Source of the DNA: a virus
Virus record (IMG/VR): IMGVR_UViG_3300007708_000015
Span: 1 to 30,545 of that record
Length of the DNA stretch: 30,545 bases
Strand: one strand, 5' to 3'
Part shown: positions 20,326 through 26,255 of the stretch, one piece after another
Position numbering within the stretch: position 1 is the stretch's first letter
Layout of the letters: each line of letters begins with the position of its first letter
Position numbers and translations under genes: made by a program
The notes under the pieces: generated by a model
Told to the model about the DNA's origin: nothing
Database searches by the model: none
The model's input: the letters and a program-made list of their open reading frames with translations, nothing else

Positions 20326-23300
20326 TTAAATAAGAAATGGAATAAATGTCCCCTGCACGTTCTCAGTCTTCTGATTCATCATATCAAAATGGATAGAAAT
20401 CATCCAATTATTCAAAACAAGAGCAGAGTAAGAATCTTTTCTCGCTTTATCTGCCCCCCTTTGTTTTTTCAAATTAGCTGGTAAATCAAAGCTTTGGGTT
20501 CCTTGAACAGACGAAGTTACTTGAATAAGGGCGCATTCTACACGGATAAGATCCATCATATCTTTTTGATGCTCAACAAAGTCAATCATTTTTGCGCCAT
20601 CTGGTTGATTCTCGTCGTAATTATTTAAGAATTTTAAATCTTTAATCGGAATAGGGGCTTTTCTTTGCATGTTATAATTATCATCCATCGCCGCCCCCGC
20701 GAAGAATATGTTTTTATGGTCAAATGCCGACTGAAGAGATTCATTCGCATACCTGATCCATTGAGAACTTGGCTTTCTTAAATAAACAATTCTTTTTGCT
20801 TTTAAGTCGTATTGATTTCTTGCTTTTTTTATCTCAGCCTCATACTCTAACATGTTGTCAAAATCAGCGTCTATGATTTCGAGTTTAATACCCATTTGCT
20901 TGAATATTTCGCTTTCATTACAAGAGTTAATAAACTGGACTCCTCCATTATAGTCAGCTACGATAGAAACAATGTTAAAATTATTAAGCAAATAGGCTAA
21001 ATAAATAATGTGACTTTTTAAGTTTGTCCCAGACATTGCGTATCCATGAACGACGGTTCCTTTTGGCTTATTCGGATCTCTTTTCGAAAGAACCATTGCG
21101 AAATCGTCGGAGCTTTCACTTTCTGACCAAGATGGGTCGATTGATAAAATATATTCATCTTTAGAGTCTCCAATAACCTCCACGCATTGACCTTCTCCAT
21201 CTGGAAAAGTGCATTCCATCATCTTACTAACTTTAAAGTATCCAGAACTGTCATCTGTAAATACTGCGCCAAACTCTCTACTAAATTGAGCCTCGCTCAT
21301 TGTTGCTTTAGCTTGGTTAATTAAGTTTTGGTCATACAATTGGTCTGGAGCGCAATCGTAGCTAAGGTGCATGATTGTTCTATGAGCGCCATCTTGAGCG
21401 TTTTGATTCAAAATCAGAGATTCGTATTGAGAATACATTTTGAATAAATACTCAAACCTATACGATGCAGACGAAAGGCCAATTATTTTGTTGTTGGGCC
21501 ATCTTTTTCTATCTTCTTCGGTTAATTTCCCTTCGGCAATCAATCTTGTTTCTAGGTCGTAAATTTCTTGACGCTCTGTTGGGTTTTCAACAACAGACAA
21601 GAAGGGAATAATAACCTCATTAAGAACTTTTTCAGGCATCAAGAGAAGTTCGTCAATAATCATTCGTTGAAAACGAAAACCCCGAAGCTTTTCGCCATCT
21701 CCAAGAGGAAGCGCTGTTATTTTACTCCTCCCAATTTCCATCGTCCATTGGTCATTGCTTTTTGAGACTCTTGTAATAGCTTGAGCAAAAAATTCTGATT
21801 TTGGGTTGAGGCTTATCTCCTCCATCTTATTAAAGATCATTTTCGCCTGACGAAACGATTTACTAATCAATCCTATGTGAACTCCCTGATTAAGAGTTGC
21901 ATCTAAAATAGCAAAAACAGCGGTCGAGAAGGAGTTGTGGTTGATTATCCCATCTGCTACATAGCAATGTTCGTTTTCTACGTGAATATCTACCGTCACA
22001 GCCTCCCCTATCTCCGTCGCGACAACTTCTTCGAAAGAAAGATCCTCCCTAATCAAATGAGAGAGTTTTTCTAAAAGCTCTCCTTGAATCCTTCCTGTAT
22101 TTAGAATTTCCCCCAAGAGCCTTTTACTGGTATTTTTTCTGAAATTTAATTTATATTTGCTATCTTTTTTATCAACAATAGATTTTTTGCCAAAATGCCT
22201 CTCTAAGTGTTCTCCAACATATGGGATATAGTCACAAAAAGATTCATTTTGAACTAATTGATCTTCTAAAGATTCCAACAGGGTATTTTTTCTTTTTATT
22301 TTAAATCCTATTTGATTTTTGAAGATTCTTATGTCTTTTTGATTACAGCTTATTAAGCTCCAAGCTTTTTTACATTCATAAGTTTTGCCGTTTGAGAAAC
22401 TTGAGGCTCCCCCTTTAAAACAAACACTTTTTCTAAAAATAATCCCAAATTGCAGGCACAAATTCTGAATTTGCTTTAATAACGTCTCGCTAGTAGAAGT
22501 AAATCCAACTTTTACATTTACGCCTTTTTTTTCTCTTCTCTGTGAAGAGCAATAGCTATCCGTATCAAATAGACCTATTAAAAGGTTTTTAATATTTTCT
22601 TTTGAGTTGTTCGTTAAGGTTTCTGGTATTGTTTTTTGATGAGCTTTTGATTCATTAAATCCTAAAAACTTTAGAAAAGATACTAACTCTTTTGAATAAA
22701 TCCTCAAATCTTGACATTCTCCATCTTTATTGGATACGGACAAATGAAGCCCTATCTTCTTGGAAAAGCTTTCTAAGAAATCTTTTGTTTCTTGATCTTT
22801 AGAAGTTATAGAAACCCCCATTGGAGTTTTTAAAATGCACCCATCCCCAATCAATAGGCCGAAAAAATAATACCAGTCGGGAATGTCTTTTTCATTTTTA
22901 ATAAGAAGCTTTGGCTTATTAAAATTCTCGACATCATTAATAAATTCAAATCCATCAAAGATGTTTCGGCTTTTGATGTCTATATCGCATCCTCTTTTTA
23001 TTACTACGTAATCGCCACAGACTATTTCTTTATTATATTTCCACTCTAGCTCTAAATCTTTATTTAAAACCATGATTCTGTGATAATCTAACCCCTCAGA
23101 CTCAAATCCAGAATTTGTTGTTATTTTATATGTCGTTTCTGAAGGGTTGATTGTCTTGTCCAAAACTTTATTAAAAGAATTTTGACTTTGAACTTCATCG
23201 CCAATTTCTATGTCTCCGATTTTAATCAAACCTCTATTTGTCCACACCAAAGAGTCGTAATGAAGACACTTACTAAGACCTCTTGACCAAATGCCCAAGA

Positions 23301-23520
23301 AGTAATCCGTTTCCATCATCGCCTTAATAGCCATATGTTGGAAAGGGAAAAGTTTTATCCCTGTAAGAAGCTCTGAGGCAAAAGATGGATTTTCTCTAAG
23401 AAATTTATAAAATAATATCTTCGCTTCATACTCTTCCAAGTATCCTTCTTTAGCTAATATCTCTTGATTGATATTAGGAAAGGTTTTTCTTCTTTTTTGT
23501 ATTCCTTGCTCCCAAGACAT
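20326..23520 (-). CDS. terL: Terminase large subunit interrupted by an intein (1064 aa precursor)
   Basis: The spliced protein would be 619 residues. The ATPase half carries a P-loop SRGLSK-S split by the intein (residues 79-84 and 530), Walker B MIIDELL (Asp623, Glu624) and a coupling motif GLSSAS (681-686). The nuclease half has SIDPSWSESESSDDF (Asp795), SIVADYNGG (Asp856) and a final acidic motif ARKDSYSALVLNN (Asp1029), as in RNase H-like terminase nucleases. It pumps DNA through the portal using ATP and cuts the concatemer. The ATG at 23520 is 3 bases after the nuclease gene stop. No function is expected without splicing because the intein breaks the ATP-binding loop. The assignment is firm from motifs and synteny. 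Confidence 0.95.
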   Translation of the reverse strand: MSWEQGIQKRRKTFPNINQEILAKEGYLEEYEAKILFYKFLRENPSFASELLTGIKLFPFQHMAIKAMMETDYFLGIWSRGLSKCLHYDSLVWTNRGLIKIGDIEIGDEVQSQNSFNKVLDKTINPSETTYKITTNSGFESEGLDYHRIMVLNKDLELEWKYNKEIVCGDYVVIKRGCDIDIKSRNIFDGFEFINDVENFNKPKLLIKNEKDIPDWYYFFGLLIGDGCILKTPMGVSITSKDQETKDFLESFSKKIGLHLSVSNKDGECQDLRIYSKELVSFLKFLGFNESKAHQKTIPETLTNNSKENIKNLLIGLFDTDSYCSSQRREKKGVNVKVGFTSTSETLLKQIQNLCLQFGIIFRKSVCFKGGASSFSNGKTYECKKAWSLISCNQKDIRIFKNQIGFKIKRKNTLLESLEDQLVQNESFCDYIPYVGEHLERHFGKKSIVDKKDSKYKLNFRKNTSKRLLGEILNTGRIQGELLEKLSHLIREDLSFEEVVATEIGEAVTVDIHVENEHCYVADGIINHNSFSTAVFAILDATLNQGVHIGLISKSFRQAKMIFNKMEEISLNPKSEFFAQAITRVSKSNDQWTMEIGRSKITALPLGDGEKLRGFRFQRMIIDELLLMPEKVLNEVIIPFLSVVENPTERQEIYDLETRLIAEGKLTEEDRKRWPNNKIIGLSSASYRFEYLFKMYSQYESLILNQNAQDGAHRTIMHLSYDCAPDQLYDQNLINQAKATMSEAQFSREFGAVFTDDSSGYFKVSKMMECTFPDGEGQCVEVIGDSKDEYILSIDPSWSESESSDDFAMVLSKRDPNKPKGTVVHGYAMSGTNLKSHIIYLAYLLNNFNIVSIVADYNGGVQFINSCNESEIFKQMGIKLEIIDADFDNMLEYEAEIKKARNQYDLKAKRIVYLRKPSSQWIRYANESLQSAFDHKNIFFAGAAMDDNYNMQRKAPIPIKDLKFLNNYDENQPDGAKMIDFVEHQKDMMDLIRVECALIQVTSSVQGTQSFDLPANLKKQRGADKARKDSYSALVLNNWMISIHFDMMNQKTENVQGTFIPFLI
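21934..23268 (-). other. Intein with LAGLIDADG homing endonuclease inside terL
   Basis: A 445-residue in-frame insert begins at Cys85 (CLHYDSLVWTNRGLIKIGDI, the N-terminal splice block with Cys1) and ends at Asn529 in VADGIINHN, followed by Ser530 as the +1 nucleophile. The penultimate His-Asn and the Cys1/Ser+1 pairing are those of active class 1 inteins. The block TTNSGFESEGLDYHRIM carries the B-block His (Hedgehog/intein fold). Two LAGLIDADG-like helices, FGLLIGDGC (about 220-228) and LLIGLFDTDSY (about 313-323), keep the acidic residues expected for a homing endonuclease. It is inserted in the P-loop, an invariant site that favours homing and makes loss costly. The frame is intact, so both activities may be live. 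Confidence 0.95.
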
Positions 23521-23523
23521 ATG

Positions 23524-24468
23524 TTATGTTTTCTTTGACCAAAAATATTGGATGTCGGTCTTCCACAAAGAGCGCCCTAAAACGAGTAGTTTTGGAATAA
23601 GCTCGACACTGGCCGCTCTTGACCCACTAAACACAAACTGACAGCAGTCCGAATATTCTCTTTGCAATTCTCTCATGTTATGGAAGACGTATTTTAAATT
23701 AAATTTCTTAAAGCTCTTTTTATTGTAGTCTTCTATAGAATAAAGAGGAGCCTCCGTAACAATAAATAAATAACAGCCTAAGCTTCTGCATCTATCAAGC
23801 TCTTTCGCGAACCGATTGTATGAAACAGTCACAGTAGAGCAGAAATCTTCAAAAGATTTTCGATCAACGTGAGTATAATTATAATTATTACCAGAAACGG
23901 CATAGTCTCCAATATCTAGTTTTAGTATTTTTGATTTTTTAAAAACAAGGGGCCTTTGTTCTCTAGTATCTACTAAAATTGTAGCGTCTGAATAATCATT
24001 CCAAAACTCCTTTGGCAATTTTGAATTAAACATTGGTTCTGTTAGACAATATTTACAAGCATCCGTATAGCTGCCAAAGTATTTTTTATAGACATCAATA
24101 TCTGGTAGGCCCAAGGTCCAAAGCTCAATAGAACTTAATCCAGACTTCAAATTCTTGGCCTTAATTCTCTTGTCCAGAATATCTCCTATATAATTTTTTA
24201 CAGTAACGAAGGGAGAAATCTCGCACCACTCCATAAGTTGATGTGGTTGGGAAAAATCCTTTTCAAAATACTCTTCGTAATTTTTAAAGGGAAGAAGTTC
24301 GCCAGTAAGTTTATTTTTGCGCTGAAAGTTTTTGACATAGTAATCCCCAAGAAGCATATCGTGCTTTTTGATGTGGGAGTGAAGACTCTTTAGAGAATCA
24401 AATGATGATTGGCACTCTTTGCAGTCAAATGTTTGTTCTTTTTCATTTTCCATATCAAATAACATCAT
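23524..24468 (-). CDS. ERCC4/XPF-family nuclease with classical C2H2 zinc finger (314 aa)
   Basis: Residues 16-36 form a perfect C2H2 finger: Cys16, Cys19, Phe23, Leu29, His32, His36 (C-x2-C-x3-F-x5-L-x2-H-x3-H). The C-terminal half has the ERCC4 nuclease signature: ILVDTREQRPLVF (Asp167), GDY (187-189) and VDRKSFEDF (201-209, a conservative variant of ERKx3D). The middle (about 75-150) looks helical and could add DNA contacts. The gene overlaps the previous one by 14 bases and ends 3 bases before terL, so it is part of the packaging operon. ERCC4-fold enzymes cut branched or flap DNA; trimming replicated, branched DNA before packaging is a natural role here but is inferred. Alternative starts are Met2 and Met6. 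Confidence 0.85.
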   Translation of the reverse strand: MMLFDMENEKEQTFDCKECQSSFDSLKSLHSHIKKHDMLLGDYYVKNFQRKNKLTGELLPFKNYEEYFEKDFSQPHQLMEWCEISPFVTVKNYIGDILDKRIKAKNLKSGLSSIELWTLGLPDIDVYKKYFGSYTDACKYCLTEPMFNSKLPKEFWNDYSDATILVDTREQRPLVFKKSKILKLDIGDYAVSGNNYNYTHVDRKSFEDFCSTVTVSYNRFAKELDRCRSLGCYLFIVTEAPLYSIEDYNKKSFKKFNLKYVFHNMRELQREYSDCCQFVFSGSRAASVELIPKLLVLGRSLWKTDIQYFWSKKT

Positions 24469-25504
24469 CCATATTTACACCTAAAATTCTTGCTCGCCAT
24501 TCAGCCATTCCCTCAAGGCGATGAGCCTCCTCTTTAACTAAGGCTTTCTGCATTTCTGCAATTCTGACCATGTTAGCCCTCTCTTCTTGCTCTTGAAATA
24601 ATTGAACTATTGATAAAATCGAAGCATTTTCCTTGTTTTTGGACTTCATTCTTTCGGCCCGATCTCCCTGTAGTTTTTTAGTAAGATTTTCTATTCTTGT
24701 TTCGCATTGGTGGTATTCGCTACTTTTTGATTTGATAATTTCCGACAAACGGTTAGTCATGTCGCTCTGATCATTAGCCTCATCAAACAAATCGTTTAGC
24801 TTGTTTAAATGCTTGCTTACTACTTCCAGATTTATGATTTCTTTGCAGACGTTGAGATAAAGATTTATCTCGTCCGCAGTAAGGTCTGGTTTGTCCCATG
24901 TTAAACGAATAAATTCCTGCTCAAAAAGCTCCCTGTCAGCTCTAGAAGTATAATTGTTCATTATTCGAACAAATCTTGAATTGCCTAAATTAGATCCAAG
25001 CTTTTCAACTCTTGTTTGGAATTGCCTATTGAGCTTATTTTCGTCCAATTCAAGCCCTGTGGACTCATTTATCTTCTTAACTATCCTTGACGGGGATTTT
25101 GGCGATATATAGCTAGAAAGAAGGCCAGAATCTTGAGACGGGACAAAATCAGGATTGATTTCTCTTAAAACGTCCAAGACAGAACGCTGTTCAATGCTCA
25201 AAGATTTGATTTCTCTATCTGGAAATATCAATTCCGCGATTTTTAATGATGAAAGACCCGTTTTAGCTTGCTCAACAATGAACACCCTTTCTTCGTCGGT
25301 GAAAAGTATCTCTTCTTTTTTTTCTTTTCTTGAAGTGTCGAAGGCGATTTGATTTTCTATCAAAAACTTCCTAACAAGTCGCCCTTGTTTTGATCTTCCA
25401 TCAAGACTTTCGTTCTCAAAGCATTTTTGAGTCAACTCTGTTAAAGAATTGATTTCGTTACAATTTGCCAGAAGGAATTGTTTGTTTTTTTCAGTGAGAT
25501 TCAT
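24455..25504 (-). CDS. Probable terminase small subunit / DNA-binding protein (349 aa)
   Basis: The gene overlaps its neighbours on both sides by 14 bases. The product has an N-terminal helical region, then a helix-turn-helix-like segment (FTDEERVFIVEQAKTGLSSL then KIAELIFPDREI, about residues 68-100), a basic linker (PKSPSRIVKKI) and a long C-terminal coiled-coil-like half (SEIIKSKSSEYHQCETRIEN, RAERMKSKNKENASILSIVQ). HTH plus oligomerising coiled coil upstream of terL is the usual architecture of a small terminase that recognises the packaging site. At 349 residues it is larger than most. Assignment is inferred from position and architecture; a transcription regulator is the alternative. 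Confidence 0.6.
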   Translation of the reverse strand: MNLTEKNKQFLLANCNEINSLTELTQKCFENESLDGRSKQGRLVRKFLIENQIAFDTSRKEKKEEILFTDEERVFIVEQAKTGLSSLKIAELIFPDREIKSLSIEQRSVLDVLREINPDFVPSQDSGLLSSYISPKSPSRIVKKINESTGLELDENKLNRQFQTRVEKLGSNLGNSRFVRIMNNYTSRADRELFEQEFIRLTWDKPDLTADEINLYLNVCKEIINLEVVSKHLNKLNDLFDEANDQSDMTNRLSEIIKSKSSEYHQCETRIENLTKKLQGDRAERMKSKNKENASILSIVQLFQEQEERANMVRIAEMQKALVKEEAHRLEGMAEWRARILGVNMDDVI

Positions 25505-26255
25505 TTGCTATGATGTCGTGCTGTTTTAAGATGTCTTCGGCTTTTCGCTGAAAAAGGGATTTGAGGTTTTTTACTTGTCTATATCCCGCTTTTCTCTTTT
25601 TTTCATTTGTCTTGTATCCCATAAAGGCCGCAACCTCTTCTTCCGACTTGCTTTCAAAAAACAACATAAGATAAGCTTTGTAAAGAGTAGGACTTAACTC
25701 TTTTTCCATATGGAAGTTGAGTTTTACTACAGATAAATCATAAGAAAAATGATTGTCTATTTTTGAACTTATTTCATTTACATGATTTTCTGTAGATAAT
25801 GTTATCCTTAAATCTAGTCCAGCTTTTTTAAAATTAGCCCATTTGTCATAAAGTTTACACTGAGTATCCTGAATTCCGCTTCTTGTGACGGAACAGGAGT
25901 TCTCTCCTGTATTAAATTCGCAATTAACACAGGGGCGAACATAATTCCCATAATGGTTTCTGACTAAATTTCGAATCTGGTTGGAAATGATTCGGCCAAT
26001 CCAAGGCTCAAGAGGTCTTTCTTGATCCCACATGTGCCATTTCTTATGGATGTGGATTTTTATTATCTGAGAGACATCCTCGAAATCTATCCAGTTAATG
26101 GCTTTTAGCTGCCACTTACCTTTTTGCTTTTTAATGGCTGCATCAATTATGCTTGCATTATCTTCGAAAGTTTGATTATGGTTTTCTTTCATCGATAAAA
26201 TCGTCCACAGATCTTCTGCGTTTTGGTTTGTAGGAAGCGCTCGAACCGTCTCCAA
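25491..26255 (-). CDS. Phage RNA polymerase sigma-70-like factor with Cys cluster (254 aa)
   Basis: Residues about 57-106 match sigma region 2 (DFEDVSQIIKIHIHKKWHMW then PLEPWIGRIISNQIRNLVRN), the part that binds core polymerase and the -10 element. Residues about 188-243 look like region 4, a helix-turn-helix (LYKAYLMLFFESKSEEEVAA, GYRQVKNLKSLFQRK). Between them Cys109, Cys112, Cys121 and Cys133 (CxxC-x8-C-x11-C) could bind zinc, unusual for a sigma factor. The start may be TTG at 26255, behind GGGGAG with 5-base spacing, overlapping the zinc-ribbon gene by 80 bases, or ATG at 26192 without a clear site. It likely directs host RNA polymerase to phage late promoters, possibly the TGTAAC sites of this window. 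Confidence 0.8.
   Translation of the reverse strand: METVRALPTNQNAEDLWTILSMKENHNQTFEDNASIIDAAIKKQKGKWQLKAINWIDFEDVSQIIKIHIHKKWHMWDQERPLEPWIGRIISNQIRNLVRNHYGNYVRPCVNCEFNTGENSCSVTRSGIQDTQCKLYDKWANFKKAGLDLRITLSTENHVNEISSKIDNHFSYDLSVVKLNFHMEKELSPTLYKAYLMLFFESKSEEEVAAFMGYKTNEKKRKAGYRQVKNLKSLFQRKAEDILKQHDIIANESH

Follow-up and report, generated by a model that had tools for sequence, protein, structure and literature searches.

A probable self-splicing intein with a homing endonuclease in the P-loop of a viral terminase, and neighbouring intein sites in related genes

The window analysed here, a virus sequence of 30,545 bases from a metagenome-assembled IMG/VR record, encodes a terminase large subunit (TerL) that is very probably interrupted, between the lysine and the serine of its P-loop, by a self-splicing intein of the class-1 type carrying a homing endonuclease (Table 1). 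An intein with an endonuclease in the terminase P-loop had been proposed in a preliminary description of this DNA, and the proposal is borne out by empty sites in related viruses, family profiles, the predicted fold and the alignment of the P-loop.

The insert is in frame and exactly 445 residues long. As had been read from the letters beforehand, the interruption falls within SRGLSK/S and the junction residues are complete, with SRGLSK on the N-side, Cys1, and a C-terminal INHN followed by Ser+1 that supplies the terminal His-Asn pair. The leucine found at the threonine position of block B is common to the window intein and its close same-site relatives. The profile comparison suggested in the preliminary description places LAGLIDADG_3 well above its Pfam cut-off (55.9 bits against 22.5, E value of 5e-15) and Intein_splicing just short of its own (32 bits against 35.8, E value of 1e-7), and the insert is not a chance reading; the splicing models of NCBIfam score under their curated cut-offs. 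The AlphaFold model, computed on an alignment of relatives, has a pLDDT of 90 and a pTM of 0.91, and its nearest solved structures over the whole length are the TliVMA intein (E value of 8e-23), PI-PfuI and PI-SceI, a match of predicted structure to the PDB that identifies a HINT-type intein fold. The insert is thus confirmed as a full-length intein of the class-1 type. The catalytic roles of the intein and endonuclease residues named here are those generally known for their families. Most likely, an N-to-S shift at Cys1 would start self-excision after translation of TerL, transesterification to Ser+1 and cyclization of Asn445 would follow in turn, and the ligated exteins would form a TerL of 619 residues. 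From its sequence, the window intein would be expected both to splice and to cleave DNA. Packaging of DNA would depend on splicing, because the insert parts the P-loop lysine from the serine.

Table 1. Features of the interrupted terL gene, and related loci with closely spaced inteins
Feature	Position	Strand	Detail
terL open reading frame	20326-23520	(-)	1064 aa including the intein
N-extein of TerL	23269..23520	(-)	84 residues, C-terminal end ...GIWSRGLSK
P-loop core SRGLSK	23269..23286	(-)	abuts the insertion point upstream; aligned with SRGSGK of Bacillus phage Stills TerL
Intein	21934..23268	(-)	445 residues, Cys1 ... His444-Asn445; TerL residues C85..N529
Block A, CLHYDSLVWTNRG	23230..23268	(-)	with Cys1
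Block B, NSGFESEGLDYHRIMV	23068..23115	(-)	His63 retained; Thr of TxxH replaced by Leu
LAGLIDADG homing endonuclease domain	22261..22893	(-)	approximately intein residues 126-336
LAGLIDADG motif 1, FFGLLIGDG	22840..22866	(-)	catalytic Asp142
LAGLIDADG motif 2, LIGLFDTDS	22555..22581	(-)	catalytic Asp237; last Gly replaced by Ser
Blocks F and G, VTVDIHVENEHCYVADGIINHN	21934..21999	(-)	
C-extein of TerL	20326..21933	(-)	535 residues and stop, first residues S(+1)FSTAVF
Empty site B position (FRQ/)	21844..21849	(-)	+1 residue is Ala
TerL loci with inteins at sites C and A	L098:4074-6617; L103 ORF 2052-6617; L106 ORF 2548-7155		

Sequence comparison supports the identification of the host protein as a terminase large subunit with a Walker A motif. 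In BLASTP, the intein-free TerL finds a match in the terminase annotated for Bacillus phage Stills (E value of 9e-27). The window TerL itself matches the Pfam profile Terminase_6N (22.2 bits against a cut-off of 22, E value of 1e-4), and a search of PDB sequences with TerL yields a marginal match to 4zni (E value of 0.23). In the BLASTP alignment SRGMSKS of the intein-free TerL pairs with the P-loop SRGSGKS of the Stills terminase, and the intein therefore sits between the P-loop lysine and serine. This placement is based on sequence alignment because the predicted structure of the intein-free TerL of L003 (from alignment A6) has a pLDDT of 49, too poor for the fold to be read. The gene order is kept in all inspected relatives and comprises a sigma-like gene, an unknown gene, an ERCC4-type nuclease, TerL and further conserved genes, the latter mostly of unknown function. 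In the window the nuclease, which bears a C2H2-like zinc finger, lies directly upstream of terL (positions 23524-24468), as it does in all inspected relatives. The sigma-70 region 2-like gene (25491-26255), also kept in relatives, lies upstream of the nuclease with one gene in between and possibly encodes a late-gene sigma factor. Some relatives were found in MAG contigs labelled Flavobacteriaceae and Verrucomicrobiales, which is host evidence at the level of binning.

A search of virus contigs with the C-extein returned 257 relatives, 80 of which were kept. The comparison with insert-free terL genes proposed at the outset gave a clear answer: in 79 relatives the two exteins adjoin at the insertion codon, the gap between them being exactly 0 nt, and in some of these relatives the exteins share about 87% identity with those of the window. 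Such a relative is L003, which encodes an intein-free TerL at that level of identity, and its length of 619 residues is that predicted for the spliced window protein. The insertion codon is occupied in six further contigs (L082-L087), whose inteins there belong to the family of the window intein and share 77-83% identity with it; some of these same-site inteins also consist of exactly 445 open codons. Of the 9 occupied loci, 8 have AAG as the lysine codon preceding the insertion (23269-23271 and equivalents), compared with 3 of 79 empty ones, the remaining 76 having AAA. We make no claim of co-conversion from this bias, which relatedness confounds and shared ancestry could also explain. Likewise, the window and L011 are highly identical near the insertion point, but this is unremarkable because the two genes match best in another stretch.

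Intein and extein histories disagree. In the TerL tree the window lies among empty relatives, L085 stands beside the empty L008 and L009, and L084 stands with L082 and L087, so that intein occupancy along the tree is patchy; in the intein tree L084 groups with L085. The extein data reject both a clade of L084 and L085 (AU test, p value of 1e-10) and the joining of all four occupied TerLs in one clade (p value of 6e-7), and the intein data reject a grouping of L082 with L084 (p value of 0.003) and of the window with L085 (p value of 0.0006), p-values that are somewhat generous since the groups were picked after the trees had been viewed. The conflict indicates that the intein has, as judged from these phylogenies, passed between TerL lineages.

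The element had been described beforehand as still mobile. Past movement stands, on the tree conflict, the AU tests, the patchy occupancy and the conserved endonuclease, whereas its extension to the present goes further than the comparison does: no recent transfer was caught among the known copies, because synonymous sites between them are saturated. The intein may nevertheless move today. Most likely, the LAGLIDADG domain would cut intein-free terL alleles at the Lys/Ser site, and repair would copy the intein into the cut gene when related phages co-occupy one cell.

The two LAGLIDADG-like helices with acidic residues recognized earlier are both there (GLLIGDG with Asp142 and GLFDTDS with Asp237), and the window copy retains the two catalytic aspartates. 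Motif 2 ends in Ser238, a position occupied by glycine in the other endonuclease-bearing same-site inteins of the same TerL family. Between lineages, at saturated dS, the endonuclease region has a dN/dS of about 0.06-0.09, similar to that of the splicing region; the endonuclease has therefore been kept functional in the long term and is, on these substitution ratios, under strong purifying selection across the relatives. As to the earlier description of the intein as intact, the aspartates, the open frame and the low dN/dS agree with it, but the serine in place of the motif 2 glycine makes this likely rather than certain.

An unlikely, though not negligible, alternative is that the intein still splices while its endonuclease is dead or weak in the window copy, so that it is now inherited vertically. 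Ser238 would fit such a history, as would the saturated comparison in which recent transfer was not seen. Decay has indeed befallen relatives: at the same site Asp142 is replaced by Asn in L087 (GNG) and by Gly in L083 (GGG), a contig nearly identical to L082 such that single-base differences between the two may be assembly or strain noise, and the site A intein of L108 is a mini-intein of 144 residues. Against this alternative stand the two aspartates of the window copy itself, the low dN/dS of the endonuclease between lineages and an endonuclease fold predicted with high confidence.

Much less probable is that the intein is retained as a regulatory device whose slow or conditional splicing times the activation of TerL. 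From its position in the catalytic P-loop, the intein should prevent ATP binding for as long as it is not excised, and conditional splicing is reported for other inteins, such as that of mycobacterial DnaB (PMC6195587), although no sign specific to the window intein was found. However, 79 relatives do without the insert, its distribution on the TerL tree is patchy, as for a selfish element, and the mycobacteriophage TerL inteins that have been tested spliced readily (PMC5050341). Although the window comes from a metagenome-assembled record, an assembly chimera or a degraded, non-functional insert is scarcely credible, since several other contigs have this insert at the identical codon (77-83% identity, 445 open codons) and purifying selection is strong.

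The intein of the window has neighbours in its relatives, where three homologous intein sites lie within 36 residues of the same TerL family. Site C (W/SRGxSK) is located six residues upstream of the P-loop site, here termed site A, and site B (FRQ/S) 29 residues downstream of site A. Inteins occur at C alone in L096/L097, at A alone in the window, L084 and L085/L086, and at B alone in several more distant TerLs as well as in L095 and L137; the site C intein of L002 is partial, while the near-identical L003 and L010 are empty. Sites A and B are occupied together, 29 residues apart, in L082/L083, L087 and L094, and sites C and A in L098/L099, L103 and L106, where the spacer consists of the P-loop hexapeptide only (SRGMSK, SRGASK or SRGSSK in L098, L103 and L106). 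L108, an 84 kb contig, is the only example with all three, in a TerL reading frame of 1577 codons (L108:3982-8712), and in its site B copy Gly replaces the first of the catalytic aspartates. More distant TerLs combine a Lys/Thr P-loop site with B (L116, L123 and L126) or, in L121:2-4108, have inteins at site B, at the P-loop site (truncated at its 5' end) and at another position before SKIRGSRF. The window has Ala as +1 residue at its empty site B, and a spliceable intein there would therefore need this residue changed to Ser, Thr or Cys.

On balance, we lean towards regarding the window intein as one tenant of a terminase cluster of three homologous inteins, at sites 6 and 29 residues apart, some separated by SRGxSK only and all present in one allele. 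The deep forks of the tree are not resolved enough to show the inteins of sites A, B and C descending from one another within TerL.

The window element itself is ordinary in kind, an intein between P-loop lysine and serine or threonine having already been described in TerL. The mycobacteriophage intein TerL1-a lies between the invariant P-loop lysine and the following Thr/Ser (Kelley et al. 2016, PMC5050341), that is, at the same site of the same type of protein; in tests of other TerL inteins in that study, splicing was seen with five in a reporter, and two, those of sites b and c, cleaved related terL genes that lack an intein (PMC5050341). However, TerL1-a belongs to the TerL1 family of actinophages, whereas the window encodes a divergent, Terminase_6-like TerL from a virus lineage that has not been cultured. 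The terminase of Psychrobacillus phage Perkons (MT325768.1, L091) likewise has an intein with LAGLIDADG motifs between P-loop Lys and Thr (FPRGFGK/C...HN/T), but the phage is unrelated, its intein is 26.6% identical to that of the window, and the tree resolves no close kinship between the two.

The relatives are less ordinary, in how densely their sites are packed and in the spacing of six residues. A model for such a hot spot is provided by the MCM helicase of haloarchaea, a cellular archaeal protein rather than a phage terminase, in which the neighbouring sites MCM-a, -b, -c and -d of one ATPase interfere in homing, one of them lies right after the Walker A lysine, alleles hold one, two or no inteins, and mini-inteins and transfer between species occur (PMC10643990). 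Two inteins share one TerL reading frame in the crAss-like phage OBYQ01000140, a recoded phage whose inteins are by description of the Hint-Hop type (PMC7886860); in contrast, the TerL family of the window uses the standard code and has LAGLIDADG inteins, up to three per gene. A literature search of incomplete coverage found no described pair of inteins as closely spaced as those at C and A.

The window thus adds a further clean case of an intein in the terminase P-loop, one whose endonuclease is, as judged from its residues, probably active and for which many natural empty alleles exist. The related loci matter more, since they provide within one conserved phage gene a natural series of empty, C, A, B, C+A, A+B and C+A+B alleles that also spans full, Asp-lost and mini-inteins and is suited to the study of how inteins succeed one another, how they interfere in homing and how splicing proceeds next to very short exteins. 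If the reading of these loci as a cluster is true, two splicing reactions would share a six-residue extein, and the order of splicing and interference in homing would become testable in a phage.
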